Source: a virus. From it: 35,854 bases of DNA. The translations under genes were made by a program, and so were the position numbers. The notes beneath the pieces were generated by a model. The model worked only from the letters and a program-made list of their open reading frames with translations. It made no database searches and had not been told where the DNA came from. Location of the stretch: positions 1 through 35,854 of the IMG/VR virus record IMGVR_UViG_3300013306_000035, one strand, 5' to 3'. Positions 2,356 through 30,143 of the stretch are shown piece by piece (within the stretch, counting starts at the first letter, position 1; each line of letters starts with the position of its first letter).

Positions 2356-2369
2356 AGGGGAACATCAAC

Positions 2370-2852: not shown

Positions 2853-2853
2853 C

Positions 2854-5800: not shown

Positions 5801-6213
5801 GTGTGGCCGGATACCGGTCAAAGGACGGCTACTTCATGGTGGGGAAACCGGACGGGACGTCGAGCGGCCCGTCGGACGACTACGCCGATCCGCCATCCTT
5901 CGGCTTTGCACCGGGGACGCGGTTCATTCCGGGGCAGCACATCAACGAGCTTCTCAACCACAAGGGCAAGGAGACCGAGCAGGAAGCGTCCGACCTGTTC
6001 GACAGCCACTACGACGCCGGCGCGGCCAAGTATTTCCTCAGTGGCGGCACCAACGCTCCGCCCACACCGCTGCCGCCGGGCAAAGACGTCCTCAACAGCG
6101 AGGCGGAGCAGACACTACCGCCCGCGGCGCTGCCGCAAGAGCAGCTTCCGGGAGTACAGGAAGACCCCTACAAGACCAGCCCGGATGACGACGAATCCAG
6201 CGGAGCGCTGTGA
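2854..6213 (+). CDS. Large ejection protein with lytic transglycosylase and M15 peptidase domains
   Basis: A 1119-residue internal virion protein that carries two predicted peptidoglycan-degrading domains. The first, about residues 280-390, is a soluble lytic transglycosylase (SLT)-like domain: E303 in FASIESSG is the likely catalytic acid, followed by HGLFNLT and, near residue 370, YGSHNQGMGG. The second, about 540-645, is an M15/VanY-type zinc peptidase: H572-x6-D579 in WHPSGRAID, then WGGHF (626-630) and DRMHFQV with H640 as third ligand. The rest is Ala/Gln-rich and probably helical. It starts 1 base after the previous stop, and its stop overlaps the next start by 4 bases. Known relatives (T7 gp15/gp16 type) are ejected into the periplasm to open the cell wall. 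Carrying both a glycan-strand and a peptide-crosslink activity in one ejection protein is notable. Domain calls are confident; cleavage specificity is not known. Confidence 0.85.
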   Translation: MAVRIPVYERHVQLDSGAQTIPRFSASTELGKAVKEAGGAMISVAAHWRAKQDSFDKMQMAANVGTYHAEIQQIIAEETAKFNPAVDRPGVLHDRIMERVAVANQKFQSTAPPSLASEYKIKGDASQSQTSYTSAGHESTIRNSYGRSFLDKQVADIAASVVKNPDAHPTAIAQVKQAIKDAAPASGLSPSQQRALEDTYLDTVGKNVIKGYMATGRADDAAKFREQFVKDREAESPVQFQAPTVVKPQTQLPGGATGPVEGKLNEKRIAEIDKNPTVKAAIEKAAAENGLDPQALKVFASIESSGNPKDVTGSHHGLFNLTKAEFGMNGGGNIYDAADNANAAAKVLAQKKDQLTQQLGREPTSAELYGSHNQGMGGVMAHIQNPDQPAWKTMLATKEGQDRIESDGQAGAEKWAKSTVNANVPSDVTKRLYNGDASQITSRDFMAINATKVQGGNIDEAITNARMEPKPEAPRTVVASADGTVQSDTRPPAYVGAVNVGGAQPARTLAGYQQQASIPLDEAGAHGYERGGVKTAPWLVDTVRNASKVLPEGYTAKIISTVDPRSTGTPWHPSGRAIDIQIYDDKGNKVPNVGPPSVPGWDVYEKMGAAARAYQQEKYPDQHLTWGGHFNTGTPYDRMHFQVGGDHARDFTPQQVTQAGEALKASPIQIAQADDGSGRPTVPSGLSRWQQWNQTQTNVINGGTMKAAAINAAMKASLVRTINSDLNATKVNGDGIKLTPDLQKYYGTDSLSFDFISNKIGTGAAIKWQQDKDFNQKVFNGGAHMEEMPRDVMIERLQALQPDPNSPVYDDQVKVYSEVLKKAQGIDKLRNSDPAAAADKDPVVAEARKAAYADRGNQEKMDKLITARMNAQEHLGIADPLRTPLTNDEAKELAAPLLNRARPDPANAAQEVAVEVMKRVGSATANGVPDLQQRALQTVLKTQHITQQQAADTAAALATAQHPTPAPLIAKDRQPPIIYDEFGVAGYRSKDGYFMVGKPDGTSSGPSDDYADPPSFGFAPGTRFIPGQHINELLNHKGKETEQEASDLFDSHYDAGAAKYFLSGGTNAPPTPLPPGKDVLNSEAEQTLPPAALPQEQLPGVQEDPYKTSPDDDESSGAL

Positions 6214-9200: not shown

Positions 9201-12197
9201 GCGATGAAGACCGTTGCGAACATGGAGCAACTGCACCCCGAGTGGCAGGGGCTGGCGCAGGAGCTTTACGGCGTCAACAAGCTGATCGGCAAGCTGGAGA
9301 TGGAGAACGGCCTGATCAGCGCCGAGATGTACGCGGAGCGGATGCACCCGCGCAACGAGCGCTACGTTCCGCTTTACCGCGACATGCGCGGCATTTCCGA
9401 GCAGCTTGGTGTCGGCGGCGAGTTTCGCGGTGACAAGAATCTCGAAAACCTTGGTCTTTACAAACGGCAGGGCAGCGGTCGCAACATCCTCTCGCCGACC
9501 GAGACGATCATGACGCGGCTGGCGAGCATCAACGACGCCGCCAATCAGAACATGATCACGCGGGCACTGCGCGATCTTGTGCAGCTTGTCGGCGGCAAGG
9601 AAGGCGCGCTGATCGCCGAGATGATCCCCAACGCGCAACTGCGGGCGCTTGACGTCAACGTCAACGACGCGGTCTACAAGGCGGCGATTGCGCAGGGCTG
9701 GATGCCGGACGATGCCAAGTCTCTGGTGCAGGGCCTCCAGCATGAGCTTGGTCCCGACATCCGCACCAAGCTCTACCGGCAGGAATCCATCAAGGCGGGT
9801 GGCCGACCGATCATCTTCGGCTGGGACAACGGCGAGCGCTTCGCCATGCGGCTGCCGGACGGCGAGTTCGGCAGGCAGCTTGTCGAGGTGATGGACTCGC
9901 TGGGGCCGAAGGGGATGCAGGCGTGGGCACAGGCGGGCGGTCTCGTGGTGGACGCGCTGACGTTCTCGTCCTCGACGCTGCGCGCGGGCGCCACCGGCAC
10001 CCCCACCTTCATGGCGAAGAACCTGCTGCGCGACGCCTTCATGCAGTTCCTTACGGTGCCGGAGGCGGGCGTCGACACGCTGGCAATGGCCAATGCCATC
10101 CGCGGCGGGCGCTCGTACCTGATGGGCGACGAGTTCTACCGCATGTACCTGTCGACCGGCGGCATCCGCGGCGGCGTCGGCGCCGCCGGTCTTTCCCGGT
10201 CTTCGCAGCAGGTGGAGTTCGAGAAAGAAGTCAGGCGCTTCGCCGATGCGGGCATGGACATCTCCAAGAGCAAGTTCAGCCCGAAGGCGTTGCAGAACGC
10301 GCGCGCCGAGATGGCCGACGCGCTGGGCAAGGAAGGCGTCCCCGCGCACCAGCAAATCTGGTTCGGCGACATCAAGGACCTGATGCAGAGGCTGGAGATT
10401 TCCGAGAGTGCTGGTCGCGTCGGTCTTTTCCGCACGGTGTACGACGCCAACCTCGCGATGGGGCGGGACAAGCGCTACGCCATGTACGACGCGGCGGCGA
10501 AGGCGCGCGACTTCATCGACTACGGGCGCATGGGATCGCGCATGGAGATGTGGTCGCGCATGGTGCCGTTCCTCAATGCGAACGTGCAGGGCATCGACAA
10601 GTTCATGCGGACCTATGTCGGTTCGCCGTCGTCGCCCGGCATGTTCTTCAAGCCGTTCACCCAGCAGCAGGCCGACTACCAGAAGGCGCTGCGCACGACG
10701 CTGATGCCACGGGTGGCGGCGCTGGCGGCGATCAGCGCCGGGATCACCTACGCATGGGAAGATGACCCTGTGTACCAGCGGCTGTCGGTGCAACAGCGCT
10801 CGCAAAACTGGATTTTCCGGGTGCCGTGGTTGGCGTCCGGGTCCTACGACATGCTGGGCGGCGGCAACGTCGAATTGCCGGAGGGCATGCAGGGCGCATG
10901 GGTCTTTATTCCCAAGCCGTGGGAGCCGGGGACGCTCTTCAACTTCGCGGAAAAGGCGGTCGAATTTCTCGGGTCGGGCGGTGACACCAGCCATCTCACC
11001 AAGGCGCTGTCCTCGATGCGCTACACCTTCAGCGTTCCTAACCCACTGGAGCTTCCGCTGGTCCGCACGTCGGCGGGGCTGGCCTCGAACTACGACGACT
11101 TCTTCCAGCGCCCGATCATCTCCTCTAGTTTGCAGGGGCTGGCACCGCATCTTCAGGCCAACGAGTACACCAACAAGTTCTACGTCGCGCTGGCGCAGAG
11201 TCTCAACATGGTCTGGAACAGTGAGGACGCGCACACGTGGTTTCGCAAGAACATCCCGGTCGTCGGCTCGATGCTGGCGGCGCCGTGGTCTCCAATGGAG
11301 GCGCAGTACCTGATGCAGGGCGCGTTCGGCGATTGGCCGCGCGAGCTTGGCGGCATCGGCGGCATTGGCCGCTCGCTGCTCAACGGCGAGATGCCCAACG
11401 CGCAGGACATTCCCGCGCTGCGCGCCTTCGTAAAGACCAAGATGGCGATGGGCGAGCCGATGAACGAGCTTTACAACCAGATCGGCCAGAACGGCGGGCG
11501 GCTGACGGTGGCCAACAAGACCTTCAGCCAGCTTGTCAAAAACGGCGATCAGCCCGCGGCGCAGCAATACCTCAATTCGCTCGATGAGACCCAGCGCGAC
11601 TACGTCTACATGCACCAAGTGCAGGCGGGGCCGCTGGCCAACGTGCTGCATCCGCTCGACCGCTCGTCGGCGCTGGCGTCAGTGACGCGCGTCCTGAAAA
11701 ATGGTCTTTTGACCGAGGGCGGGCTGGCGACACTGCGTGATCCCAATGTTCGCATCAAGCTGGAGAACGGCAAGCGCGACGCCATCATCCAAGCGGTCAA
11801 CGAGTACACTGCGACCGAGGCGCGCAACGGGCTGATCGTGCAAGGTGCCGACGGTTTCAAGAACCTGCCGGTCAAGGACACCAAGCCGTATCTCGACATC
11901 ATCAACGCGATCTCGCCGGAGGTGGGAAAAGACCTGAGCGCCCGTCTCGCACAGTCGAAGGTGATGCCGATAGAGACCATCCAGCGCTTCTGGCCCGATG
12001 CGCAGCGCGCGCTTCGTGTAGGATCGTCCGCAGACCCGACTCAGTTGTCCCGCCAGATCAAGGCGATCAGCGAGCGGGCCGCCATCTCGGGCTACGAAGG
12101 GGGTGGTAGAAGGAGCGGACGCGGCGCAGTCGATGTGAGCGGCCAGCAGGTCAAACGCGGCAAGGCGGCACCGGTCGCGCTGCCTGCCGTCCCATAA
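6210..12197 (+). CDS. Giant internal virion protein with HEVGH metallopeptidase motif and LPD38-like region
   Basis: At 1995 residues this is the largest gene, a T7 gp16-like or 'large polyvalent protein' of the virion core. Visible parts are: residues about 320-360, a stretch (RLYRAEG at R326, then LFSTTQF) vaguely like an ADP-ribosyltransferase core, which I treat as weak; residues 570-640, a low-complexity Ala/Gly linker; residues 715-780, a zinc metallopeptidase-like segment with HEVGH at 723-727 and a downstream SEGFGEF (E767/E771) that could give the third ligand; and from about 1440, PFLNANVQGIDKF and what follows, resembling LPD38, with a hydrophobic stretch near 1498-1515. It starts in an ATGA overlap with the previous gene and ends 11 bases before the tail fibre. 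Size and position point to an ejected protein. The peptidase activity is a prediction from motif only. A second frame (7924-8121) is nested in the linker. Confidence 0.8.
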   Translation: MMADDEVPTETPAGGTGFQLPDAPGDFSETVPNKATAKPGKMADPFTPLTPEQERTERARLNFQQGFRGTLAGSALAADAARGAEGFTPEEQAKMPGEIAGAQAAIGAELPAIDSGGINFDAAQETAKDELQKIQADQMAYKNMPAYHGVVEGAFSLAGQLGGMSLSPENLVFPQARIGSTAWRVAHPLISDMIGYGVAQGAIQGVANPIVQTNEIRAALRKEFDPVEASLAFPVGFAFGGGLAAITHGAAGLYRYSRDALEDYMIKGLRGPQLTPEVKPYVAPEPPRAPADTFEHGTQFVPAAPHEPLAVGVTPEAPTGSVRLYRAEGPGDDQAKHVLFSTTQFPGANQFIDLPAETAGLLTREGESLAVPQAIAAMREKMPVTPAAPARAPEGPSVFENLTDYDKAVRVKKGEEPQTFTEWVRSQGGLKSDPELKALYGRTKSDLVRKTGKSLDEIREAAVQQGRLDKDAGIDDVLRLLKDEDSGVKHYHPLETAKAQEIAAKRDPELRRVMDEVDVSLREIGEHPSQIGNKAKKAEAKDIRNRAIEIAHTEDVHPETAIERAMQEYGEHEAGAAGKAGRLVEEHPDIPFDTEATPRAGGRAGEAEPGVAPAANAPVDGGAHAAAVAEGRIAKRVKGMAGQGIAAPPGGTRLGADVASAHFIGPLRPVENLQDMMRRVSKDLELTVRKGVTEKGALGQYDFETHIARLNEMGPDGVVTWAHEVGHDIENRMGKPVVGLIAANEQSMRAFAGVMGRGLEGRELLSEGFGEFMAAYITNRPRLELIDPTFTKAFREMMAKENPALLKTLDDAHSSYLNYQNSPSDKAVASMIVTHGEVPKADPNDPLQRGATGRWLSNFYWNYVNRQHPMTIAFRYLAEQYEKKNGKLLDLRPDQDPRLLAQVLSDSGFQKTVMDLTYGIQNMRDLTPEGASYFSIMRRVTADPLTGTEVKSEAEFLERRKAFDAYLTSRWHLELRRQMSNGEIDLTRMPTGMTDGDAMKTVANMEQLHPEWQGLAQELYGVNKLIGKLEMENGLISAEMYAERMHPRNERYVPLYRDMRGISEQLGVGGEFRGDKNLENLGLYKRQGSGRNILSPTETIMTRLASINDAANQNMITRALRDLVQLVGGKEGALIAEMIPNAQLRALDVNVNDAVYKAAIAQGWMPDDAKSLVQGLQHELGPDIRTKLYRQESIKAGGRPIIFGWDNGERFAMRLPDGEFGRQLVEVMDSLGPKGMQAWAQAGGLVVDALTFSSSTLRAGATGTPTFMAKNLLRDAFMQFLTVPEAGVDTLAMANAIRGGRSYLMGDEFYRMYLSTGGIRGGVGAAGLSRSSQQVEFEKEVRRFADAGMDISKSKFSPKALQNARAEMADALGKEGVPAHQQIWFGDIKDLMQRLEISESAGRVGLFRTVYDANLAMGRDKRYAMYDAAAKARDFIDYGRMGSRMEMWSRMVPFLNANVQGIDKFMRTYVGSPSSPGMFFKPFTQQQADYQKALRTTLMPRVAALAAISAGITYAWEDDPVYQRLSVQQRSQNWIFRVPWLASGSYDMLGGGNVELPEGMQGAWVFIPKPWEPGTLFNFAEKAVEFLGSGGDTSHLTKALSSMRYTFSVPNPLELPLVRTSAGLASNYDDFFQRPIISSSLQGLAPHLQANEYTNKFYVALAQSLNMVWNSEDAHTWFRKNIPVVGSMLAAPWSPMEAQYLMQGAFGDWPRELGGIGGIGRSLLNGEMPNAQDIPALRAFVKTKMAMGEPMNELYNQIGQNGGRLTVANKTFSQLVKNGDQPAAQQYLNSLDETQRDYVYMHQVQAGPLANVLHPLDRSSALASVTRVLKNGLLTEGGLATLRDPNVRIKLENGKRDAIIQAVNEYTATEARNGLIVQGADGFKNLPVKDTKPYLDIINAISPEVGKDLSARLAQSKVMPIETIQRFWPDAQRALRVGSSADPTQLSRQIKAISERAAISGYEGGGRRSGRGAVDVSGQQVKRGKAAPVALPAVP
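7924..8121 (+). CDS. Candidate nested gene in an alternative frame of the giant virion gene
   Basis: A 65-residue frame lies wholly inside the 1995-residue gene, shifted by one base. It begins MKQAQQGKQGG and continues with a charged helical body (RLTPKQHLERADVLEKLN, then an HRSMAAHMLRRSRK segment). Over these codons 56 of 65 third positions are G or C (86%), the normal pattern of this genome. The host frame has only 30 of 66 (45%) and reads as an Ala/Gly/Glu linker. The G+C-third signature moves back to the host frame on both sides of this interval. CAGGAG at 7908-7913 lies 10 bases before the ATG. I do not recognise the product. It could be an overprinted small virion or regulatory protein, or the remnant of a separate gene once present between two genes now fused through the linker. 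Expression is unproven. Confidence 0.55.
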   Translation: MKQAQQGKQGGSSKSTPTFRLTPKQHLERADVLEKLNPESHLPQMHRSMAAHMLRRSRKDASPSE

Positions 12198-12208
12198 AGG
12201 GGGTTTTC

Positions 12209-13726
12209 ATGACGGTTACCGCAGCCGAAGCCAGAATCGAGTACGCCGGAAACGGCGCAACCAAGGTCTTTGCCTATCCGTACCAGTTCTTTCAGGCCGA
12301 CGACCTCGACGTCTGGCTGTTCAACGACGCGACCGGCGAGGGCGTCGAGCAAATTCTGGGCTCCGACTACACCGTGACCGGCGAACTGAACCCGACCGGC
12401 GGCAATGTTGCCTTCACGGTCGCGCCTCCCGCGGGCTACACGGTCATTATCATCAACAACCCCGACATCGTGCAGACGCTGCATTACGTCAACGCCGACG
12501 ACTTCCCGGCAGACAGCCACGAGCAGGGTCTCGACCGGCTGACCAAGATTTGCCAGCGGCTATCGGATCGCGTCGACCGCGCCGTGCGCGCGCCTGATTA
12601 CGCGCCGGAAGACCAAGTGCCGGATGCGGGCTCGCTTCTGTCTCTGGTCGAGGACGCACAGGAAGCGGCGGACGAATCTGCTGTCTCAGCAGCCGCGGCG
12701 GCCTCAAGTGCCGATAGCGCGGATACGTCGGAGGCCAACGCGGCCAGCGCTGCCGATACCGCGACGACGCAGGCCGGTTACGCTGCGGCATCCGCCAGCA
12801 ATGCGCTGAACTTTGCCAGCGCTGCATCGGCATCGGCCAATGATGCCGCCGACTCGGCGGCGCAGGCAAATGTCGACAAGATCGAGTGGCAGGGCCTCTG
12901 GTCTGCCGCGACTCAATACGCGGCCAATGACGCGGTCAGTCTGGCGGGCACGTCGTACATCGCCAAAGTCGCCAACATGAACAACTCGCCGGACACGCAC
13001 CCGACGCTTTGGGACGTGCTGGCGGCAAAGGGCGCGGCGGGTCCGGCTGGCTCTGGTTCCGGCGACATGCTGCGCGCCAACAATCTCAATGACGTGGCCT
13101 CGATCTCGACCTCGCGCAACAATCTTGGCCTCAAGGGCGCGGCGATTCTCGATGTTGGCACAACTGCTGGCACCGTAGCCGCCGGCGACGACGCTCGCAT
13201 CAACGGCGCGGTGCAGCATACCGGCGACACGATGGTCGGTCATCTCGGTCTGCCGACCGGTCCCGCCGCTACGCAAGCCGTGCGCAAGGATTACGTTGAT
13301 GCGGCTGTTGCTGCTGTGCCTGCGCCGCCGGTTGCCGCGACCGCCGCCGAATACGTCGCCAACTCGGCGCCGACCAAGATGCTCACGCCGGGAGCGGTGT
13401 GGGCGGCGGCCGCCGTGCGATCAGACTTGAGCGGCTCGGGTCCGTACACGCCAGACTTTTCAGCGGCGCTTCATTTTTTCATTCCGGTCAACAACGCGGC
13501 TGCAACGCTGAACAATCCGACCGGAGCAAAGGCCGGGCAAAAGGGATTGATTTATCTCCAGCAGATCGGCGGCAGCTCTCAAATCACGTCTTGGGGAAGC
13601 ATGTACAAATTTCCAGGCGGCGTTAAGCCGCCGCTGATTTCAACACCGTCCGCCATCGACGTGATCTCGTTCTCGGTGATGGATGGCGCGACGATCCTGT
13701 GCAGCTACTCGGCGGATTTTAAATAA
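12209..13726 (+). CDS. Tail fibre with T7 gp17-type N-terminal domain
   Basis: A 505-residue fibre. Residues 1-125 match the T7 tail fibre N-terminal domain that anchors the fibre to the tail: an opening ARIEYAGNGATKVFAYPYQF, a beta sandwich, then a helical DSHEQGLDRLTKICQRL segment. Residues 150-225 are an Ala/Ser/Asp-rich heptad-like stalk. Residues about 228-275 (WQGLWSAATQYAANDAV, then TLWDVLA) resemble a CBM5/12-type carbohydrate-binding module. LRANNLNDVASISTSRNNLG at about 290 is a common fibre spacer. The C-terminal 130 residues form a head domain. The ribosome site AAAGGGGG ends 6 bases before ATG. The stop TAA abuts the ATG of the following adhesin gene, so the two are translated together. 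Its role is adsorption, with the host receptor unknown. Confidence 0.9.
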   Translation: MTVTAAEARIEYAGNGATKVFAYPYQFFQADDLDVWLFNDATGEGVEQILGSDYTVTGELNPTGGNVAFTVAPPAGYTVIIINNPDIVQTLHYVNADDFPADSHEQGLDRLTKICQRLSDRVDRAVRAPDYAPEDQVPDAGSLLSLVEDAQEAADESAVSAAAAASSADSADTSEANAASAADTATTQAGYAAASASNALNFASAASASANDAADSAAQANVDKIEWQGLWSAATQYAANDAVSLAGTSYIAKVANMNNSPDTHPTLWDVLAAKGAAGPAGSGSGDMLRANNLNDVASISTSRNNLGLKGAAILDVGTTAGTVAAGDDARINGAVQHTGDTMVGHLGLPTGPAATQAVRKDYVDAAVAAVPAPPVAATAAEYVANSAPTKMLTPGAVWAAAAVRSDLSGSGPYTPDFSAALHFFIPVNNAAATLNNPTGAKAGQKGLIYLQQIGGSSQITSWGSMYKFPGGVKPPLISTPSAIDVISFSVMDGATILCSYSADFK

Positions 13727-16285
13727 ATGCTGCCGGGGATCACACCAGCGTTGTTTGGCGGCAAGGATTTCCTTGCGCCTGCGCAGGCGTTCGGCAACGA
13801 CAGCTACACCGTCAGCCTGTTGCACATGGACAGCCCCGACAACCTGACCGGCGTGGTTGGGATGCAGGGCTTTAAGGACTACGCCTACGGCGCGCCGCTA
13901 TCCCGCCGGGATGCTTGGCAACTGGCCGCCGGGTCTCCGCAGACCGTCGTCTCGTATCCGTTCAATCAGGTTGCCACGTTTCCCGGCGGCACCGCCATCT
14001 CGCTGCCGGATGCGCCCGATCTGGACCTGAAGGGCGACCTCACCATTGACTTCTGGTTTTGCTATGGGGTCACGACAAACGTCGGCGACATCATCAGCAA
14101 GCGCAACAACAGTACCGCGTTCGCCCCGTTCCTATTCCTGCAAAGCAGCACCTCCATCACCTTTTATGCGAGCAGCAACGGCTCAAGCTGGGATATTGCC
14201 AACGGCGTGACTGCCGCCGGGCCGGGCATCGCGGCGGGCACTTGGTATCACTTTGCCTGCGTGAAGCAGGGCAACACCTACAAGTTCTACATCAACGGCG
14301 GCTTGCAGGCGGCAACAGTCACCAGCGCCCTCGTGCCGTGGAAGACCACCATGCCGATGCAAATCGGCGGCGTCGGCGGTGCGTTTTACAACGGCTATCT
14401 GGACGAGGTTCGCGTCAGCAAGATTGCCCGCTGGACCGCCGCCTTCACGCCACCCAATCAGCCGTACTACGCGCGGCTCGATGTCGGCGGTAATGACGTC
14501 GCCACCAAGCTGCTGCTGCATTTCGACCTGAACAACTTTCTGGGCGACAGCGCCTTGGGGTCGATGACAAAAAAGACCATCGTCAACAGTGGCGGGGGAC
14601 AGCTTGGCTCTCCGAACAATCCGGCACTGACGCTCAACGTCGCGCAATACAGCGGCACTCTGCGCACTGCGGCCAGCGCGCCGTGCTCCGAGATTACGCC
14701 CTACCGGGGAAACTTCACCGTCGACTTCATGTACTACCGCCCTGCGTCGGTCGCTGGCGGTTACATTGTCGCCAAACGCGCCACCAACGCGCAGTTCGCT
14801 CCGTTCGTCATCATGGACAACGGCACGGGCGGGGTCAGTCTTCTGATGTCGACCAGCGGGGCGGGGTGGGAGGTCAACGCGACCATTGCAACGGGGCTTG
14901 CGCTCAATACTTGGTATCATCTGGCGCTGGTGCGCGACGGCGCCAACATGCGCTTCTTCGTCAATGGAACGCAGACGTGGACGCAGAATATCGGTGGCGG
15001 CCCCCTCTTCAACAATGCGGCTGTCGAGATGAGCGTCGGGGCGCAGACAGGCGGCGGCACTTCCAGCAATTTCTACATCGACGAACTGCGCTACTCCGAT
15101 GTGGCGCGCTACACCGGACCCTTCACGGCGCCCATTGCGGGCGGTCTTCCTTATGGCCCGAATCCCGCCCCGCCCCAGCCTGCGACGCATTTCTCTGTCT
15201 CGGCACCCGCGACGGCATCAACGGGGGTTGCCTTCAATATCACGGTGACGGCGCTCGATGCCTCCAACACTCCCACGCTTAACTACTCCGGTACGGTGCA
15301 CTTCACTTCGACGAACGGCTCGGCGGTTCTACCCGCCAACAGCACCCTCAGTGGCGGCGTCGGGACCTTTGCAGTGACGCTCAACGCCTCTGGCACCCAC
15401 ACCATTACGGCGACCGACACGGTCACCGGCTCGATCAACGGAACGACCGGCAACGTCGCCGTGACGTCTGTGCCGAAGTCACTGGCGCTGACATCGAGCC
15501 AGACGTGGACCGTGCCAGCCGATTGGAATAGCGCCAACAATTACGTCTATTGCATCGGCGGCGGTGGCGGCGGTGGCACTGGTGGTAATGGCGGCGGCGG
15601 CGGTGGCGGTGGATATGCAAGAAAGAACAACATCGCCCTGACGCCAAGCACGGGCGTTGGCGTTACGGTTGGCGGCGGCGGCGGTGCCGGTAGCGCCGGA
15701 AATGGCGGCGGCGCGGGCGGCAATACTTCGTTTGCTGGTGTTGCCGTGGCGACTGGCGGCGGCGGCGGGACTAGTGGCGGCGGCGGCGGCGGCGGAATGG
15801 CTGCCGGGGACCAAGGCTTTGCTGGCGGCGCTGGCGGTGCTGGCAATGGCACCACTGGCGGCGGCGGTGGCGGCTCTGGCGGCACGGGTGGCGCTGCTGG
15901 TCGCGGTGGCGCAGGCGACGGTTCACAAGGCGCGGGCGGTGGCGGCGGATGTGGCGGCGGAACTGCTGGACAACCGGGGACCGGCAGTGGCTCTGGCGGC
16001 GCTGGCGGCAATAGTCCGTGGCAGGCTGGTGGCGCTGGCGGTACGTTCTCTCCCGGTGGCGCTGGCGGCAATGGCTCCGGCGGCGGTGGCGGTGGCGGTG
16101 GTCAAGGCTCCGGTGGCGCTGGCGGCAATGCACCGGACTATTCCGGCGGCGGCGGCGGCGGCTGTTCTGCGTCGAGCAATCTTGGCGGCAATGGCGGTTT
16201 CTATGGCGCTGGCGGCGGCGGGAGCAACTATCAAGGTGGCTCTGGCGCGCAGGGCATCGTCTATATCTGGTGGCTCCCGGCGTGA
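13727..16285 (+). CDS. LamG/Ig/Gly-rich adhesin, probable receptor-binding tail protein
   Basis: An 852-residue modular surface protein. There are two concanavalin A-like (LamG-type) domains at about residues 25-240 and 245-470, each ending in a YLDEVRVSKIARW or YIDELRYSDVARY signature. An Ig-like beta domain follows at about 490-580 (TASTGVAFNITVTALD). The rest is a glycine-rich domain from about 590 (QTWTVPADW, then long G/N/A runs), closing with QGIVYIWWLP. Such Gly-rich domains form polyglycine sandwich tips in fibre proteins that recognise host receptors. There is no signal peptide. The gene begins directly after the fibre stop codon. Together these suggest a second adhesion protein attached to, or chaperoned with, the fibre. 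The repetitive GGC/GGT coding of 15556-16240 is prone to slippage and recombination. Domain identification is confident; location in the virion is inferred. Confidence 0.8.
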   Translation: MLPGITPALFGGKDFLAPAQAFGNDSYTVSLLHMDSPDNLTGVVGMQGFKDYAYGAPLSRRDAWQLAAGSPQTVVSYPFNQVATFPGGTAISLPDAPDLDLKGDLTIDFWFCYGVTTNVGDIISKRNNSTAFAPFLFLQSSTSITFYASSNGSSWDIANGVTAAGPGIAAGTWYHFACVKQGNTYKFYINGGLQAATVTSALVPWKTTMPMQIGGVGGAFYNGYLDEVRVSKIARWTAAFTPPNQPYYARLDVGGNDVATKLLLHFDLNNFLGDSALGSMTKKTIVNSGGGQLGSPNNPALTLNVAQYSGTLRTAASAPCSEITPYRGNFTVDFMYYRPASVAGGYIVAKRATNAQFAPFVIMDNGTGGVSLLMSTSGAGWEVNATIATGLALNTWYHLALVRDGANMRFFVNGTQTWTQNIGGGPLFNNAAVEMSVGAQTGGGTSSNFYIDELRYSDVARYTGPFTAPIAGGLPYGPNPAPPQPATHFSVSAPATASTGVAFNITVTALDASNTPTLNYSGTVHFTSTNGSAVLPANSTLSGGVGTFAVTLNASGTHTITATDTVTGSINGTTGNVAVTSVPKSLALTSSQTWTVPADWNSANNYVYCIGGGGGGGTGGNGGGGGGGGYARKNNIALTPSTGVGVTVGGGGGAGSAGNGGGAGGNTSFAGVAVATGGGGGTSGGGGGGGMAAGDQGFAGGAGGAGNGTTGGGGGGSGGTGGAAGRGGAGDGSQGAGGGGGCGGGTAGQPGTGSGSGGAGGNSPWQAGGAGGTFSPGGAGGNGSGGGGGGGGQGSGGAGGNAPDYSGGGGGGCSASSNLGGNGGFYGAGGGGSNYQGGSGAQGIVYIWWLPA

Positions 16286-18276: not shown

Positions 18277-18390
18277 ATGGAACTGGACGAAGAGTTGCCG
18301 GGATCAGACGAAGAGCTTGAACGGGCTGCCGATATGCGGTTGCCGGTCAACGCCGCGGCCCCAAGCAAAGACCACGAGAGCGCCTGTTAG
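18277..18390 (+). CDS. 37-residue acidic peptide at the end of the late operon
   Basis: The frame encodes an acidic peptide (MELDEELPGSDEELERAADM, then a Pro/Ala-rich tail ending in Cys). AAGGGAG at 18264-18270 is 6 bases before the ATG, a strong ribosome site. The stop codon TAG at 18388-18390 overlaps the terminase stop codon on the other strand (18387-18389), so the rightward and leftward operons meet without spacer. No function is recognised. Confidence 0.55.
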   Translation: MELDEELPGSDEELERAADMRLPVNAAAPSKDHESAC

Positions 18391-19973
18391 GTCTCTTCCA
18401 GCAGTTTGAAGGGGTCGTCGATCTCGACGGCTTCGGTCTGCTCCTTGTCCTCGAACATCCCGGCCCGCATTGCGCGGCGGCGATAATGCCATGCCATGAT
18501 CACAGCGTCGGCCCGATCCGGCGAGCCGCCCAGCCGGTGCCGTATCTCGTCTTTGTCCTCGACCTGAATGGTGTCGCCCTTCGGTCGCCAACGCGCCGCG
18601 GTCAACTCGGCAGTCAGCCGCTCGTCCGGCGGCAGAGCGACATTCTCGCCATTTGCCGGATCGAGCGCCTCGCGGAATCGCCACAGCATCTCCGTCCGCT
18701 GGTTTGAAAACCGGTACTTGTCGTCCTTGGTGCGCTCGCCGGACTTGGCGTTGAAGATGCAGGACTCGATCTGGATGTTGTTGCTGGCAAGGTGGTCTCT
18801 GGCCGATCCGCCCCAGCCGCCGGTCATGTCGAGCACGATCAGCGCCGAGTCTTTTCGGTGCACCAGTATCTGACCGGCAAGCTCCGGGCCGTTCTTGGCA
18901 TCGACGCCTTGCAGCACGGTGAGCCGGTCGAACCAGTTGCCGAAGAGGGGTGCGATGACGTGCGGGTCATTGGTGCCGCCGCCCGAAATGTCGACGCCCA
19001 TTGTCAGCATCTTCAGGCCCTGCGGCGAGCCCGGCTTCCAGCGGCCCTGCGCTTGACGCACCCACTCGGTCGGGATCACCTGCCACGCATGGTCTTCCCG
19101 CCCGGCAAGGAAGTCGCCCTTGAGGAGCTTCGAGCGCAGTGGCTCCGGCAAGGATTGGATTTGTGCTTTGTACTTGGCGTCGAGGTAGGGGTTATCTTCG
19201 AGCCGTGCCGGTATGAATGTGCGGGTCAGCGGGGTGTACTCTTCCGCCCCTACACGCTGCGTATTGCCGTTCTCGCACCACACCGTGCGCGCGTCGGCGC
19301 CGACGAAGGCCCAGCGTAGCTCGCCCGGCAGTGCCGGGTTGGGGAACATGGGGTCCAGCCACGGCGCAAACCACTCGATCAGCCACTCGCCCTCGCCGCC
19401 AATCGGCGGATTGCTGGCGATGATCATGCGGGTGCGCTGGCCCTTGGTGGTGGTGCGGCACCACGATCCGACGAAGTTGACCTTGTGCGCGGTCAACTGC
19501 GCGCCCTCGTCGAAGCCGATGAAGTCGTGCGGTCGGCCCATCCAATCCATCTCCTGCCCGACGCCGCCCAGCGCGCCGAACTCGACGGTCTTGCCGTCCT
19601 TCTTGAGGATCATGTCTTGGCCGTTGTAGCCCTCGCGCCCGCCCTTGTTGGCGATGGAGAGGACCCGCTCTTCGACGCCGCGCAGGTCCTTGTACTGCGC
19701 GCGGAAGATGACGCTACGCTCGTGTCTAGTCAGTGCCGTGCCACAGAGTAGGTCGGTCTTTCCGCCGCCTGCGGCCCCGCCGTACAGAAGCAGGTCGGCC
19801 CGGCTTTCGTACGCCACCATCTGCGGGATGTTGCGCGGGTCCGGCATCCACAGCGCCGCCATCTCCTTCTTCAGCAGCCTGTCCAGTTCGGCCTTCGACT
19901 TTGGGTCCATTGAGGCGAGCATCGCCCGGTACGGCTCCAGCGGGTCGTGGGTCTTCGAGGAAGGGGTACTCAT
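18387..19973 (-). CDS. Terminase large subunit (ATPase and nuclease)
   Basis: A 528-residue DNA-packaging motor and head-filling nuclease. The N-terminal ATPase has a Walker A at 65-73 (GGAAGGGKT) and a Walker B at 150-156 (DFIGFDE), with SNPP near 187 as coupling motif. The RNase H-like nuclease domain shows D328 in MGVDISGG, D382 in IVLDMTGGWG and D487/D489 in PDRADAVIMAW, the acidic residues expected to hold two metal ions. I chose the ATG at 19973 (MSTPSS) because GAGAGG lies about 10 bases upstream; the frame is open to 20048. Its first 248 bases overlap the RusA reading frame. It is the last gene of the leftward operon and points against the virion genes. The small subunit is about 14 kb away on the other strand. 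Confidence 0.95.
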   Translation of the reverse strand: MSTPSSKTHDPLEPYRAMLASMDPKSKAELDRLLKKEMAALWMPDPRNIPQMVAYESRADLLLYGGAAGGGKTDLLCGTALTRHERSVIFRAQYKDLRGVEERVLSIANKGGREGYNGQDMILKKDGKTVEFGALGGVGQEMDWMGRPHDFIGFDEGAQLTAHKVNFVGSWCRTTTKGQRTRMIIASNPPIGGEGEWLIEWFAPWLDPMFPNPALPGELRWAFVGADARTVWCENGNTQRVGAEEYTPLTRTFIPARLEDNPYLDAKYKAQIQSLPEPLRSKLLKGDFLAGREDHAWQVIPTEWVRQAQGRWKPGSPQGLKMLTMGVDISGGGTNDPHVIAPLFGNWFDRLTVLQGVDAKNGPELAGQILVHRKDSALIVLDMTGGWGGSARDHLASNNIQIESCIFNAKSGERTKDDKYRFSNQRTEMLWRFREALDPANGENVALPPDERLTAELTAARWRPKGDTIQVEDKDEIRHRLGGSPDRADAVIMAWHYRRRAMRAGMFEDKEQTEAVEIDDPFKLLEET

Positions 19974-20403
19974 GGTCTGGTGGCCTCTCGATGGTGACCC
20001 AAGCATAGCCTTGACCTGACATGCCGGGCGGCATGAAGCACTTGGCACAGCGTCCGTAATGCGCGACCTGCTGGTCGTCGACCCACGCGATGCCCTTGAG
20101 GGCGTCCTTGATGTTCTTGATCAGGTTGTCAAGGTCCGGCCTGCTGTCTTTCCAGTGGCGACGCGGCGTCGCCCTTTGCGGATGCGGAAAGACCGCGTTG
20201 AAGCTCAGACTGACCGGCCCCTGCAACGGCGTAAAGATGCCGCGCTCGCGCATGGCGATCTTGCAGATCAGCGCGACCATCTTCTTGTAGGCAACCTGCT
20301 CGGGCGGGTCATGCACCCCGCCGTAGTGGTGCGATGGCCGCATCCAGCCCAGCAGCGGCCCGGGAACACGGAAGACGAAGTCGTCAACCGGCCCGGGTGC
20401 CAT
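19726..20403 (-). CDS. rusA: RusA-family Holliday junction resolvase with read-through tail
   Basis: RusA enzymes are dimeric nucleases that cut four-way junctions, resolving recombination or replication intermediates before packaging. The conserved core is visible: VSLSFNAVFPHPQ, then RPDLDNLIKNIKDALKGIAW and VDDQQVAHYG, with the cluster of Asp residues that bind metal. A normal RusA ends at about 130-140 residues. Here the core ends near WVTIERPP, but the frame has no stop until 19726, giving an 80-residue tail that lies over the start of the terminase gene. In that overlap the G/C-rich third positions belong to the terminase frame. ATG 20403 is preferred over 20409 because AAAGAG lies 7 bases before it. 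Function is confident; the real C-terminus is not. Confidence 0.85.
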   Translation of the reverse strand: MAPGPVDDFVFRVPGPLLGWMRPSHHYGGVHDPPEQVAYKKMVALICKIAMRERGIFTPLQGPVSLSFNAVFPHPQRATPRRHWKDSRPDLDNLIKNIKDALKGIAWVDDQQVAHYGRCAKCFMPPGMSGQGYAWVTIERPPDHEYPFLEDPRPAGAVPGDARLNGPKVEGRTGQAAEEGDGGAVDAGPAQHPADGGVRKPGRPASVRRGRRRRKDRPTLWHGTD

Positions 20404-23557: not shown

Positions 23558-23742
23558 TATTCTGTGACCTGCCTCAGTCCGTTCTGCTTCCGCAGCTTCT
23601 TGATGTCCTTGTGCGCTCGCAACACGCGGATGTCGGCAACCGGCTTGCGGTGCTTGCGGGCAATGTACTTTGACGACAGGTTGGTGAACGCCAGATCATA
23701 GAGAAGCTGGCCTATCGGGGTTTTGCCGTACGTCACGGTCAT
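23557..23742 (-). CDS. Small basic helix-turn-helix-like protein
   Basis: A 61-residue protein rich in Lys and Arg. TNLSSKYIARKHRKPVADIR reads like a helix-turn-helix, and a basic C-terminal helix follows. Stop and next start share base 23557, and its own start overlaps the ERF stop as ATGA. Probably a small DNA-binding factor; not identified further. Confidence 0.6.
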   Translation of the reverse strand: MTVTYGKTPIGQLLYDLAFTNLSSKYIARKHRKPVADIRVLRAHKDIKKLRKQNGLRQVTE

Positions 23743-24626
23743 TGCGTCGCCTGCTCAAGTTCCTCGCGCCGGGTCTTCTCGACGTCGGTCACGCGGTCGA
23801 ACACCTGCGATGCCATCTTTGCCAGATCGACCAGTGGCTTCTCATTGGCCTTGGCCCATGCGTCGACCTCCGCAACGCTCTCGCACAGCTTGATCTGCTC
23901 GACGTAACTGCGTCCCCACTCGACGGCCTTGATCCCGGCGGGCCGGGGGATTTCGTGCGGGGCTCTCTTCTCGACCGGTCCAGCCCGCGGCCCGATCATC
24001 TGGTCTTTCGCTGCCGGTTTGATCGGCTCGCGGCGCCCGCCCCGGTCATTGTCGCCGCGGTCGGCGTCGTCCTCGTCGGTGGTCGGTATCTGGAACAGCG
24101 ACAGCAGGAAGTATTTGCGCGCCGACGTGTGGCACTTGTTCAACCCCTTGTCGTCGAACGTCCCCTTGCTCGTGCGCGTGTTCGACACGCCGGTCTGCCG
24201 CTGCGGGAACGGCCACACCTCGCCCGACTTGTGCATGATGGTGAAGTCGTACGTCGCGAAGATGGCGTTGCCGTTGTCCATGAAGCCGCGCTCGACCTCG
24301 GTCTGCATGATGACCACCCCGTTCTTCGCCATCATCGGGGTGAGCCCATTGAGAATGTCCTGCATCCGCGCGTAGCTGTAATTGTGAAAGGCGTTCTTGC
24401 CCTCCTTCTTGATCGGATTCTCCGCAACCTCCTCGGTGATCTTGGCGATGGCCTCGGCCAGCTTGCCGAACGGCGTGATCGGCATGGCCTGAAACGGCTT
24501 GGCCTCCGGCAGCGTCGCGGGCGCGGCAGCAATCTGCTGCGGGGTCAACGCTGGCAGGTTCGGATCGGGCCGGGACGGCGCAATCTCGCCGGTCTCCGCG
24601 TCAACTTGTTCCTTCATCTTGCCCAT
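23739..24626 (-). CDS. erf: ERF-family single-strand annealing recombinase
   Basis: A 295-residue protein. The ERF core is clear at about residues 50-190: NAFHNYSYARMQDILNGLTP, then VVIMQTEVERGF, NAIFATYDFTIMHKSG and a CHTSARKYFLLSLFQIPTTD end. ERF proteins anneal complementary single strands in phage recombination and genome circularisation. A Gly/Arg/Asp linker and a charged C-terminal helix follow. I prefer ATG 24626 because GGAG is 7 bases before it; the ATG at 24632 lies directly on the ribosome site. It follows the YqaJ exonuclease with a short overlap, forming the usual exonuclease plus annealase pair. Confidence 0.9.
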   Translation of the reverse strand: MGKMKEQVDAETGEIAPSRPDPNLPALTPQQIAAAPATLPEAKPFQAMPITPFGKLAEAIAKITEEVAENPIKKEGKNAFHNYSYARMQDILNGLTPMMAKNGVVIMQTEVERGFMDNGNAIFATYDFTIMHKSGEVWPFPQRQTGVSNTRTSKGTFDDKGLNKCHTSARKYFLLSLFQIPTTDEDDADRGDNDRGGRREPIKPAAKDQMIGPRAGPVEKRAPHEIPRPAGIKAVEWGRSYVEQIKLCESVAEVDAWAKANEKPLVDLAKMASQVFDRVTDVEKTRREELEQATQ

Positions 24627-25440
24627 CGTCATTCTCCGGTTTGATTGTGAGTGATCCGTTCTTCGCCCGCTTCACGCGGATGCCGTGGCCGAACGCCTCC
24701 TTGGCATCGACGGGAACCGCGGCCTTGATTTCCTTGGCGGCAAATTCATAGGCCTTGTGCGCTTCGAGGTTTTCCGTCCAGCGCGACGCGGCGGTGGCCC
24801 ACAGGTTGTTGCCGCTCATGTTGACGATGCCGACGTACTCGGGCTTCGGGGGCTTGATGTACGGGTTGGGCACTGGCTCGCGCAGGTCGAATACGCACTT
24901 CATGAAGAGCGCCGCCTGCTCGACAAGCTCGGCCATGTAAAGCTCATTGCGTTTGATAAAGACCGGCGCCGGTTGCTTGGCGCCCGCGATCACGGAGAAC
25001 ATGATCTCTTCGGTGCCGGTGCAGTACATGGTCCAGTGCATCTGGGGCATGTACCGCTCCTCGATCACCGCGCGCCCCTCGAAGCCGCCGACGTGTTTGG
25101 CCTCGACCGCGCAGCCCAGCTTCTTCGCCCAGCCATCGAGCGTGACCAGTGCCCACGGGACGTCCTCGTGTTGGTAGCTCTTGCCGCGCTCGCTGATCTC
25201 GCCAACGCTGCGCGCCAGCCAATCGAGATGCAGCGGCTCGGTGCAGGAGCCCAGCAGGACATGCCACTGGTTGGCGAGGCGCTGGTTTTCCTCTTCGGCC
25301 TTGGCCAGACCCTCGGGATCGCCCGTCAGTTCCAGCCACAGGTCGTACATCTGCTGCGCATCGCCACTCATGATGGCGGCGACGCGGCTACCGGTCAGCT
25401 TGCCCCTGCGGGCGATCTTCTGTCTCTCCGTCAAGGCCAT
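24601..25440 (-). CDS. YqaJ-family viral exonuclease
   Basis: A 279-residue nuclease of the lambda-exonuclease/YqaJ group. The opening LTGSRVAAIMSG matches the first helix of this fold. TLDGW followed by AVEAKHVGGF gives the metal-binding Asp and E-x-K motif, and YMPQMHWTMYCTGTEEI is the conserved QxxHxxx helix region. The enzyme would resect double-stranded ends to produce 3' single strands for the ERF protein encoded next. It is the first gene of the leftward operon and its start faces the switch region with the helix-turn-helix genes, so it is probably under their control. Confidence 0.85.
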   Translation of the reverse strand: MALTERQKIARRGKLTGSRVAAIMSGDAQQMYDLWLELTGDPEGLAKAEEENQRLANQWHVLLGSCTEPLHLDWLARSVGEISERGKSYQHEDVPWALVTLDGWAKKLGCAVEAKHVGGFEGRAVIEERYMPQMHWTMYCTGTEEIMFSVIAGAKQPAPVFIKRNELYMAELVEQAALFMKCVFDLREPVPNPYIKPPKPEYVGIVNMSGNNLWATAASRWTENLEAHKAYEFAAKEIKAAVPVDAKEAFGHGIRVKRAKNGSLTIKPENDDGQDEGTS

Positions 25441-25528: not shown

Positions 25529-25744
25529 ATGCCGCGCAGCAAAGAGGCCAAGGCGAAGCGAGCCAAGGGCTTGACCGAACTCCGCAAGCGCAAGGGGTTG
25601 CAGGCGGCCTTGGCCAAGCATCTCGGTGTATCGCGGCAGGCCATCTCGGATTGGCCCGCGGTCCCCATCGACCGGCTCAAGGACGTGGAAGCGTTTACGG
25701 GGATACCGCGCGAAAAGCTGCGGCCTGACATCTTCCAGCGGTGA
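25529..25744 (+). CDS. Cro/YdaS-like helix-turn-helix regulator
   Basis: A 71-residue protein with a basic N-terminus and a Cro-type helix-turn-helix (LAKHLGVSRQAISDWPAVPI), followed by RLKDVEAFTGIPREKLRPDI, the signature end of YdaS/DicC-like regulators. Such proteins repress divergent promoters in phage switches and may also act in toxin-antitoxin pairs. AGGA lies 8 bases before ATG. The stop overlaps the GTG start of the next gene. It faces the YqaJ operon across an operator palindrome, so it is the best candidate for the switch repressor. Confidence 0.8.
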   Translation: MPRSKEAKAKRAKGLTELRKRKGLQAALAKHLGVSRQAISDWPAVPIDRLKDVEAFTGIPREKLRPDIFQR

Positions 25745-26070
25745 GAGCCAAGCCGACATGCCCGCACTGCGGCCAGCGCATGCCGGTCAGACGCTACGGC
25801 GTGATCATGTCGCCGCTCAAGGCCAGCATCCTTGACCTGATTCGCAAGGGCGTCTCCAACGAGGCGATCCACCAGCGTACCGGCCTGTCTCGCGCGACCA
25901 TCAAGGCGCACGTCTGGCAGATCAACGAGATGCTGGCTGGAACGCGATGGGGCAGCACCGACCAAAGTGCTGCCCCGAAACGGAGAAAAACCACCCCCTC
26001 TCAGGGGAGGCAAGCGCACCGTAGTCACCCCGGGCAGGGTGTCAAGTTAGTTCGGAACCCCCCCTTGTAA
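25741..26070 (+). CDS. LuxR-like helix-turn-helix protein with N-terminal zinc knuckle
   Basis: A 109-residue protein starting at GTG 25741 in a GTGA overlap with the gene before. Residues 7-11 (CPHCG) suggest half of a zinc-binding site. SPLKASILDLIRKGVSNEAI followed by TGLSRATIKAHVWQINEML is a GerE/LuxR-type helix-turn-helix. The last 40 residues are basic and low in structure. A 13-base segment shared with the 29.4 kb regulatory region lies in this tail (26034-26046). It probably acts with the Cro-like protein in lysis/lysogeny or early gene control. No partner toxin is recognisable. Confidence 0.75.
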   Translation: MRAKPTCPHCGQRMPVRRYGVIMSPLKASILDLIRKGVSNEAIHQRTGLSRATIKAHVWQINEMLAGTRWGSTDQSAAPKRRKTTPSQGRQAHRSHPGQGVKLVRNPPL

Positions 26071-26101
26071 CGAACCGCAGAGTCGGGGGTGGCCCGCTGT
26101 T

Positions 26102-26117
26102 TGTTTCACGTGAAACA
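26102..26117. promoter_or_regulatory. parS: Exact consensus parS centromere site (ParB binding site)
   Basis: The 16-bp sequence TGTTTCACGTGAAACA is a perfect palindrome and is identical to the consensus parS to which chromosomal ParB (Spo0J) binds in most bacterial phyla. It lies in the 107-base gap between the convergent regulator gene (ends 26070) and a leftward small gene (ends 26178), where no promoter function is needed. By base composition a chance exact match in a window of this size is extremely unlikely. I saw no second copy and no ParA or ParB gene in the window. Confidence 0.85.
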
Positions 26118-26177
26118 GAATGGTGTTGTGGTGGCGTCGTTTCTTCATGTTGTTTGCTCAAGGGCCATATTGGTAAT

Positions 26178-26375
26178 TCAGTCAGAACCCAAAAGCCTGC
26201 CGCGCTGTAGCTTCACGACGCCACGCTCGACCAGCCTCTTGACCGCCGGACGATTCATTCGGTCGCGGACTTCTTCACCTTTGTCCAGAAGCCCCGCAGC
26301 AAGCAGATTGTTGATTTCCGCTTGATCCCGTTTTGAAACCTTCGCGGTCAAGTCGATTGATATGGTCGATCTCAC
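26178..26375 (-). CDS. Small early protein starting at GTG
   Basis: A 65-residue charged protein (AKVSKRDQAEINNLLAAGLL; MNRPAVKRLVERGVVKLQ). The coding strand has AGGAGG 8 bases before the GTG, an excellent ribosome site that decides the start. The sequence reads like a winged-helix fragment: helix, NRPAVKRLVERG, strand. It belongs to the A+T-richer block of small genes. No family is assigned. Confidence 0.65.
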   Translation of the reverse strand: MRSTISIDLTAKVSKRDQAEINNLLAAGLLDKGEEVRDRMNRPAVKRLVERGVVKLQRGRLLGSD

Positions 26376-26421
26376 TTCAAATCCTCCTGTGCGTCATTTC
26401 GCGGCGGTTTCGGTAGGACCA

Positions 26422-26595
26422 TTAGCGACGTTTCTTTTGTTTCGACCCCGTACTGACGAGAACAACTTCATGGGCTACGGGCTTTCGGCGTTTGTCTTGG
26501 GGTTGAATATAAATCATATCGCCCTTTTTCCACCCCACAGACATTGGTGTAAAACCAAAGCTGCGTTTAGTCTTTTTCTTCTTGCGCCCTTTCAT
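26422..26595 (-). CDS. Small very basic protein (57 residues)
   Basis: The frame encodes a Lys/Arg-rich protein: MKGRKKKKTKRSFGFTPMSV, then WKKGDMIYIQPQDKRRKPVA and a basic end. AAGGAG lies 8 bases before ATG 26595, directly after the stop of the upstream gene. The gene lies in the stretch with the lowest G+C of the window (about 42% in 26461-26640 by hand count). The composition suggests nucleic-acid binding; the body looks like a small beta barrel. Not recognised. Confidence 0.65.
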   Translation of the reverse strand: MKGRKKKKTKRSFGFTPMSVGWKKGDMIYIQPQDKRRKPVAHEVVLVSTGSKQKKRR

Positions 26596-26607
26596 TTGAA
26601 ATTCTCC

Positions 26608-26811
26608 TTAGTGTTGTTCAATCCGAAAGTTGATTGAACCACTTTCGGTAAATTCAATTTCGCCTTGGGTTTCGGCTGCGCCGCGCAGTTGATCGGCAGT
26701 TAACTCAACCCCGCATCCATTGTGAAAACGCAATAGCAATGCCTTAGCTATTACGTCCCACATTTCTCTGGCGTCAGTTGGAAAGTCTCGGTGAAACATG
26801 CTATTCCTCAT
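26608..26811 (-). CDS. Small early protein, unknown function
   Basis: A 67-residue protein with a helix (REMWDVIAKALLLRFHNGCG), a short VELTADQLRGAAET helix and a final beta pair (GEIEFTESGSINFRI). The ATG at 26811 overlaps the stop before it as ATGA. An in-frame ATG at 26799 has GAGG 8 bases upstream and is an equal alternative. It is part of the A+T-richer gene block. Function unknown. Confidence 0.65.
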   Translation of the reverse strand: MRNSMFHRDFPTDAREMWDVIAKALLLRFHNGCGVELTADQLRGAAETQGEIEFTESGSINFRIEQH

Positions 26812-26987
26812 TTAGCGGCGGTATTGGCCTCGTCCCATTTTTTAACAAACTCTACTGCAATGGCATGAAGTGCCCGACTTTCTTCCCTATGCGCGGGCGA
26901 CATAGTCGTATAGCCAACTCGGGAGGTCGCGCCCCGGCGATCCGTTGATCGCGAAAGATTGGCACCGGAAGCCCTTGTCGTCTCCAT
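26808..26987 (-). CDS. Small early protein, unknown function
   Basis: A 59-residue frame beginning METTRASGANLSRSTDRRGA and ending in a helix (HAIAVEFVKKWDEANTAAK). I place the start at 26987, one base after the stop of the upstream gene; a longer in-frame start at 27101 would overlap that gene by more than 100 bases. The stop overlaps the next ATG. No domain visible. Confidence 0.55.
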   Translation of the reverse strand: METTRASGANLSRSTDRRGATSRVGYTTMSPAHREESRALHAIAVEFVKKWDEANTAAK

Positions 26988-26988
26988 T

Positions 26989-27390
26989 CTAGCCAACTGC
27001 GCGCAGCGGAAGTTTTCGGTCGTTTCGTTTTTCCCATTGCTCACGGAGCTTGTCGGATTCCTCGCCAACTCCGTGATTGAGCAACCAGCTATTCCGACCA
27101 TCGTGGTTTGCCGGTAGCTGCTCGATTAGTAGCTGTGCCCATTTGATCGGGTCCTGTGCGGCGGTATGCGTGTCAGTCGCTTTTTCAGGGTAACGCGCTC
27201 GATATAGCGTGACGACGCGAGCGGCCCAATCAAGCAATTTGGCCGTTGCTTCATTGGTCTGCGTTGGACCGTCAGCATTCGCGATAGCGTCCATCTTGCG
27301 GATCAGCGCGGCGTGGTCAGTAAGTGTTTGCACCAAATCCCGAGGTGCATTGTCGTCCAGCCGCCTGAGATAATCTTCGTCGTGTTTCAT
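26989..27390 (-). CDS. Helical early protein, unknown function
   Basis: A 133-residue, mostly helical, acidic protein (MKHDEDYLRRLDDNAPRDLV; HAALIRKMDAIANADGPTQT; KLLDWAARVVTLYRARYPEK; DPIKWAQLLIEQLPA). AAAGGA precedes the ATG by about 8 bases, and the ATG overlaps the stop of the 29-residue frame upstream. No motif of known function. Confidence 0.7.
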   Translation of the reverse strand: MKHDEDYLRRLDDNAPRDLVQTLTDHAALIRKMDAIANADGPTQTNEATAKLLDWAARVVTLYRARYPEKATDTHTAAQDPIKWAQLLIEQLPANHDGRNSWLLNHGVGEESDKLREQWEKRNDRKLPLRAVG

Positions 27391-27476
27391 GCTGTCGTTC
27401 CTTTAGCGGCGGCAATGGAGAGTGTGGAGGATTGCAGGCTATCCCTCCATTGCCAATGTTGCGCCCGGTTAGCCAT
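27387..27476 (-). CDS. 29-residue peptide at the head of the A+T-rich block
   Basis: A tiny frame: MANRAQHWQWRDSLQSSTLS, then IAAAKGTTA. GGAGGAATC stands directly before the ATG, a near-ideal ribosome site, and the stop TGA overlaps the next ATG as ATGA. It may be a real micro-protein or a leader peptide that couples translation of the 133-residue gene. The combination of ribosome site and overlap is the only evidence. Confidence 0.5.
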   Translation of the reverse strand: MANRAQHWQWRDSLQSSTLSIAAAKGTTA

Positions 27477-29474: not shown

Positions 29475-30143
29475 ATGAGAAAAACCAGAGGAATACTGGC
29501 AGGGCTCGCCCTGCTGGCGATGGCTGGGGCGGCGCAAACGCCCGCGAAGGCTGCCACCTTCACGCAAAGCGATTTTGCGGGAACTGGCACTTTCGGCACA
29601 GCATCGGCATCCTGCTTGGATGCCTCTTGCGATCAGGTTGGCGTCAACGTCAACATGGACCCCAACATCCTGCTCCAGACAGGCTCGCACTTCCTGTTCA
29701 ACTTGAGCTTGGCTGGAACGGGGTTCATCGACGCAACGTCAATCGACCTCGCACAAGGCACCAACATTCAGGTGCTGACACACACCAGCCCCGCCACTTA
29801 CTCGAACGGGCCGTTCAAGTTCTTTTCGGACGGCATTTCGGCTGACTGCGGTAACGGTGGATCGTCTGGCGGATGCGGAAGCACACTGTCGTTCACTATC
29901 GACAACTTCAGTGGCTTCCTTTTCGCCACCACTCAGTTCAACAACATGAACATCATTGCGGCGGCAGACGCTCTGCTCACCGACTGCACTGGTGGTTGTA
30001 CTGGTCCTGTTGGGTTGACAGGCGATCTGACACCGACACCGTTCGCGGTGCCGACACCTATTGCCGGTTCTGGTCCGTTGTTCATCAGCGGCCTCGCCGG
30101 TCTGTGGGCGCTGATGAGACGCCGGAAAAAGAGACTCAACTAG
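29475..30143 (+). CDS. Secreted protein with PEP-CTERM-like C-terminal sorting signal (moron)
   Basis: A 222-residue protein with a signal peptide (MRKTRGILAGLALLAMAGAA, cleavage near AKA-AT at residue 26), a Thr/Ser/Asn/Gly-rich beta domain with paired Cys (CLDASC; CGNGGSSGGCG; CTGGC), and a C-terminal tripartite tail: VPTPIAGSG, a hydrophobic helix (PLFISGLAGLWALM) and a basic end (RRRKKRLN). That tail matches the proteobacterial VPxPIxG variants of the PEP-CTERM signal, recognised by exosortase (EpsH/Xrt) and linked to exopolysaccharide or surface display. It is on the plus strand between leftward early genes with its own ribosome site AAGGAG, so it is probably expressed from the prophage. 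No phage-replication role is suggested. Confidence 0.75.
   Translation: MRKTRGILAGLALLAMAGAAQTPAKAATFTQSDFAGTGTFGTASASCLDASCDQVGVNVNMDPNILLQTGSHFLFNLSLAGTGFIDATSIDLAQGTNIQVLTHTSPATYSNGPFKFFSDGISADCGNGGSSGGCGSTLSFTIDNFSGFLFATTQFNNMNIIAAADALLTDCTGGCTGPVGLTGDLTPTPFAVPTPIAGSGPLFISGLAGLWALMRRRKKRLN

Follow-up and report, generated by a model that had tools for sequence, protein, structure and literature searches.

The stretch of virus DNA analysed here (the window, an IMG/VR virus record of 35,854 nucleotides) carries an exact consensus chromosomal parS palindrome, TGTTTCACGTGAAACA, at positions 26102-26117. Judged from sequence, this is probably a true parS, at which the chromosomal ParB of the host would load; a phage encoding neither ParA nor ParB would thereby employ the host protein in trans. 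The site has the same 16-bp consensus as parS of chromosomal ParABS systems (Spo0J/ParB type), matching it at 16 of 16 positions as claimed in the earlier note, and is the sole match at up to three mismatches within the window. Shuffled windows gave 0.06 matches at this tolerance, and from the base composition 1.6e-6 exact copies are expected in a window. The site and the surrounding features are as follows:

18387-20048, minus strand: terminase large subunit, BPP-1-like (about 41%)
23739-24632, minus strand: Erf-like single-strand annealing protein (phrog_155, 9.8e-31)
24601-25440, minus strand: RecE-like exonuclease (phrog_434, 1.7e-25)
25529-25744, plus strand: Cro/YdaS-like HTH regulator (Pfam YdaS_toxin 1e-10, P22_Cro 8e-7)
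25741-26070, plus strand: ORF of uncertain coding status with weak LuxR-type HTH similarity (GerE 8e-4, below cut-off; passed over by the codon model)
26071-26177, no strand: non-coding gap of 107 bp around parS (ORF ends on either side at 26070 and 26178)
26095-26124, plus strand: 30-nt block common to the window and its relative G006, 27/30 identical (alignment, syntenic place)
26102-26117, no strand: exact consensus parS palindrome (16/16, identical in the longer record G001)
26178-26375, minus strand: small ORF, convergent to the 25741-26070 ORF, weakly RAMA-like
26178-27430, no strand assigned: A+T-rich block of small minus-strand ORFs (52% G+C in a 63% G+C genome)

The site had been described as lying in a short gap between two convergent genes next to the regulatory switch, and an A+T-rich block had been mentioned; the gap, the minus-strand ORF to its right, and the distinct composition of the block are real, whereas the coding status of the left ORF is uncertain. 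The gap folds like its shuffles (z 0.11), with no terminator-like hairpin and no Rfam match at the site, so that a transcription terminator or RNA structure was rejected. Besides the RecE-like and Erf-like genes, the phage carries RusA-like and NinB-like genes. Neither a CI-type repressor nor a plasmid Rep was recognised in it, and the Cro-like gene alone was seen. We also identified a small secreted-looking protein (29475-30143, plus strand) with a C-terminal tail resembling the VPLPA-CTERM sorting signal (TIGR03370, E 0.06, below cut-off), which is an unusual phage cargo and possibly hints at a proteobacterial host.

The absence of ParA, ParB, and integrase genes noted earlier for the window holds for the complete genome. 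The longer record G001 (49,435 bp) represents this phage too, with an identity of at least 99.9%; window positions 1-15617 and 15616-35854 match the two ends of G001, so that the window is a circularly permuted part of the phage genome, and G001 contributes 13.6 kb absent from the window (portal, capsid, and other virion genes). Profile searches of complete G001 found no match to ParB_N (PF02195), AAA_31/ParA (PF13614), tyrosine integrase (Phage_integrase), or serine recombinase (Resolvase), each search being positive in control bacterial genomes. The possibility that par or integrase genes were hidden in the missing 13.6 kb, where the earlier note had proposed to look for them, is thereby rejected.

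With its 49.4 kb, the phage is a distant member of the BPP-1-like podophages, and its terminase matches those of Bordetella, Limnohabitans, Caulobacter, and Acidovorax phages at 41-45%. It resembles Bordetella phage BPP-1 (Rauchvirus) in its terminase, podophage virion module, and gene order. However, integrase, att site, and cI gene are all present in BPP-1, while no integrase was found in the window phage; no parS was found in BPP-1 within three mismatches. Among the terminase relatives, Limnohabitans phage DC33 (L148, PQ492659.1) is filed as Inoviridae, but a genome of 39 kb and a 45% match in the terminase large subunit suggest that it is a tailed phage.

Unlike parS of chromosomal ParABS systems, the window parS is located on a phage, lacks parA and parB in cis, and is not at a bacterial origin. 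Phage P1 and the cluster A mycobacteriophages carry parS on the phage as well, but they encode both ParA and ParB, neither of which was found in G001. In the extrachromosomal prophages of cluster A mycobacteriophages, parS is reportedly accompanied by their own par genes, and to our knowledge the phages with parS reported so far carry par genes of their own. No report of a lone host-type parS in phages was found in the open-access literature, which does not prove that none exists, and none of the eight open-access papers containing the 16-mer deals with phage-borne parS in its title or abstract. A further likeness is found in SGI1, whose parS-like sites are bound by the ParB of an IncC plasmid, the element being stabilised by the ParABS of that plasmid (PMC10954446). 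Both SGI1 and the window phage are mobile elements with parS and no matching parAB of their own; however, SGI1 is an integrative element using a plasmid ParABS, while the window phage is tailed and its site, of putative function, is of the chromosomal type.

A search of relatives at the same locus, as the earlier note had suggested, gave a divided answer. G006, a 48.7 kb relative with about 70% nucleotide identity, carries a 15/16 match to parS at the syntenic place (TGTTTCACGGGAAACA on the corresponding strand, TGTTTCCCGTGAAACA on the plus strand of its record), whereas G002, G003, G004, and G005 have no site within three mismatches, and 80 terminase-related prophage loci from bacterial genomes, totalling 1.39 Mb and reaching at most 48% in the best segment, have none at zero or one mismatch. 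Conservation of the site in all relatives is thus rejected, the G004 lineage and close kin being without it. Its absence from G002-G005 counts against use of the site by host ParB, as do the imperfect and coding copy in G006, the single copy in the window phage, and the immediate flanks in the window, which lack the A...T typical of most viral parS sites. Relatives of the G006 initiator gene were searched for in IMG/VR and the gene itself alone was found; at the DNA level, the 107-bp gap gave no more than short, chance-level matches among GenBank phages.

It had been suggested earlier that the site came in with host DNA, and the adjoining A+T-rich block does look foreign. However, host DNA carried into the phage, or pure chance, is a very improbable source of the site: the chance expectation per window is minute, phage genes with G006 homologues flank it on both sides, and G006 holds it in a homologous 30-nt block, which makes a host-DNA origin less likely.

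In G006, this block encodes LFVSRETQW inside a replication-initiator family protein (phrog_270, L141:7045-7809), while in the window LFVSRETEW is readable in one frame but belongs to no gene, the initiator gene being gone and the block non-coding. The site could accordingly be a remnant of the initiator coding sequence LFVSRET(E/Q)W that resembles parS by coincidence, which we consider improbable. The window has lost the remainder of the gene, yet identity to G006 within the block reaches 90%, compared with 65-77% in conserved coding stretches; with G006 codon usage, the probability that the peptide FVSRETQ is encoded by DNA at most one mismatch away from parS is about 5.6e-4; and the 16-mer is over-represented in unrelated phages, preferentially outside ORFs. 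The FVSRETQ codons are unusually A/T-ending and belong to one of the two stretches with the lowest third-position G/C in the gene. We read the codon choice at the G006 site as a likely constraint on the DNA, overlapping the initiator gene. Phage origins often overlap the initiator gene. Parallels to the G006 case were observed elsewhere: L092 and L109 have exact parS within an ORF bearing a GGGxHAYW motif, and in Dulem virus 194 (PP511345) it lies in a gene annotated as replication initiator.

The exact 16-mer was found in at least 120 IMG/VR stretches, a total that is a lower bound and may include some host sequence, whereas two control palindromes equal to parS in composition, TCTTGTACGTACAAGA and GTTTTCACGTGAAAAC, occur in 1 and 9, respectively. 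ParB_N occurs in four of the 120 parS-bearing IMG/VR records among the matches listed, one of them below the family cut-off, and 41% of the viral parS sites listed have no overlapping ORF of at least 60 aa, compared with 7% of positions drawn at random from this DNA. In INPHARED (GenBank phages), 321 records match the parS query, about 245 of them at 99% or more, the weakest match that could be reported being the 16-mer alone or a 16-base stretch shifted by one. These matches are topped by Listeria, Microbacterium, Arthrobacter, Gordonia, Bacillus, and Lactobacillus phages, with no enterobacterial host among the ten commonest names. The near-neighbour control palindrome has zero exact matches in INPHARED, and its six weak matches are the Gordonia parS loci themselves. 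Exact parS was present in 13 of 15 phages checked (one to four copies each, often clustered), and ParB_N was absent from all five phage isolates tested. The over-representation of parS in many unrelated viruses suggests that host machinery is borrowed.

Several parS-bearing records have features of their own. Up to five copies of parS or its core, with no ParB_N, are located within about 1-2 kb in the viral contigs L017 (2657-3444), L044 (10535-11462), and L116, and a 201-kb contig (L069) has two parS, at 4944 and 5819, in identical near-palindromic 46-bp contexts with flanks ttgaca...tgtcaa. Spiroplasma phage 4, a microvirus of 4.4 kb, has an exact parS (L384, 693-708), and more Microviridae are found among the INPHARED matches. 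The records OR846xxx-OR848xxx ("Listeria phage LM 4-11-1 / LM 4-14-1") are short unannotated contigs that account for many of the parS matches and may be host DNA.

Lytic phages are included among the carriers. In the lytic Harbinvirus (Lactobacillus Herelleviridae; L250, L252, L253, L254), two to three intergenic parS per genome are found at corresponding places, 10 of the 11 copies being exact and one having one mismatch, with aligned flanks 77-94% identical; phage BcoS-136 has four parS within 1 kb. The presence of host-type sites in many lytic phages, and their frequent clustering, would suit a role in capturing ParB, by which host ParB/SMC is titrated, or in local silencing, by which ParB spreading dampens the adjoining early genes, and the window parS is close to the Cro-like gene. 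For the window phage we regard capture or silencing as possible but rather unlikely, since a single site titrates little unless the copy number is high, and TTGACA boxes are not enriched near viral parS. The idea that parS sits by promoters was dropped, such boxes being found near 15% of intergenic-like sites and 14% of controls.

The earlier note gave as one explanation an extrachromosomal prophage, a plasmid lysogen partitioned by host ParABS via the lone parS. This is consistent with a complete genome without integrase or resolvase, the adjoining Cro-like regulator, the 80 terminase-related prophage loci lacking the site at up to one mismatch, and the SGI1 precedent, in which a lone parS mimic stabilises an element via the ParABS of another replicon (PMC10954446). 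However, the reading was not supported: neither a repressor of CI type nor a plasmid replication gene was recognised, parS is conserved in lytic phages too, and an integrase is found in 7 of 36 parS-bearing contigs of at least 30 kb versus 7 of 35 random viral contigs of at least 30 kb. With the latter result, the idea that parS marks phages without integrase was dropped, and the extrachromosomal prophage becomes just one option, which we hold to be unlikely. Because integrase is equally common with and without parS and a lytic genus keeps the site, partition of episomal lysogens cannot be the general function, although it may apply to the window phage itself.

Recruitment of host ParB in trans thus appears the best explanation of the window site. 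ParB-CTP clamps load at parS, spread, and can bring in ParA and SMC. For the phage, we infer both the binding of ParB and all effects that follow from it: once loaded at the phage parS, host ParB-CTP clamps would spread from it over the adjoining phage DNA, and the spread ParB would possibly bring ParA and SMC to that DNA. The benefit may lie in the infection itself, through placing and handling of the genome or through drawing ParB off the host chromosome; we consider this plausible, if somewhat short of an even chance, and rate it above centromere hitchhiking of an episomal lysogen, which seems rather doubtful. In a broader view, for which the considerations appear evenly balanced, a lone chromosomal-type parS would be under selection in many unrelated phages, lytic ones included, with host ParB (perhaps also SMC) recruited in a general, so far undescribed strategy of host takeover or genome handling, the window phage being one case.

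The sites at which a bacterial chromosome is anchored, segregated, and supplied with SMC are set by ParB and parS. Should it prove common for phages to bear this host centromere tag without the genes, ParB would be a phage-host interface that seemingly nobody has tested. Model phages are at hand in Lactobacillus phage Bacchae, Ruegeria phage DSS3P8, Microbacterium phage OneinaGillian, and Bacillus phage BcoS-136, and, if the reading is true, the effect of ParB recruitment on a lytic phage would be directly testable.
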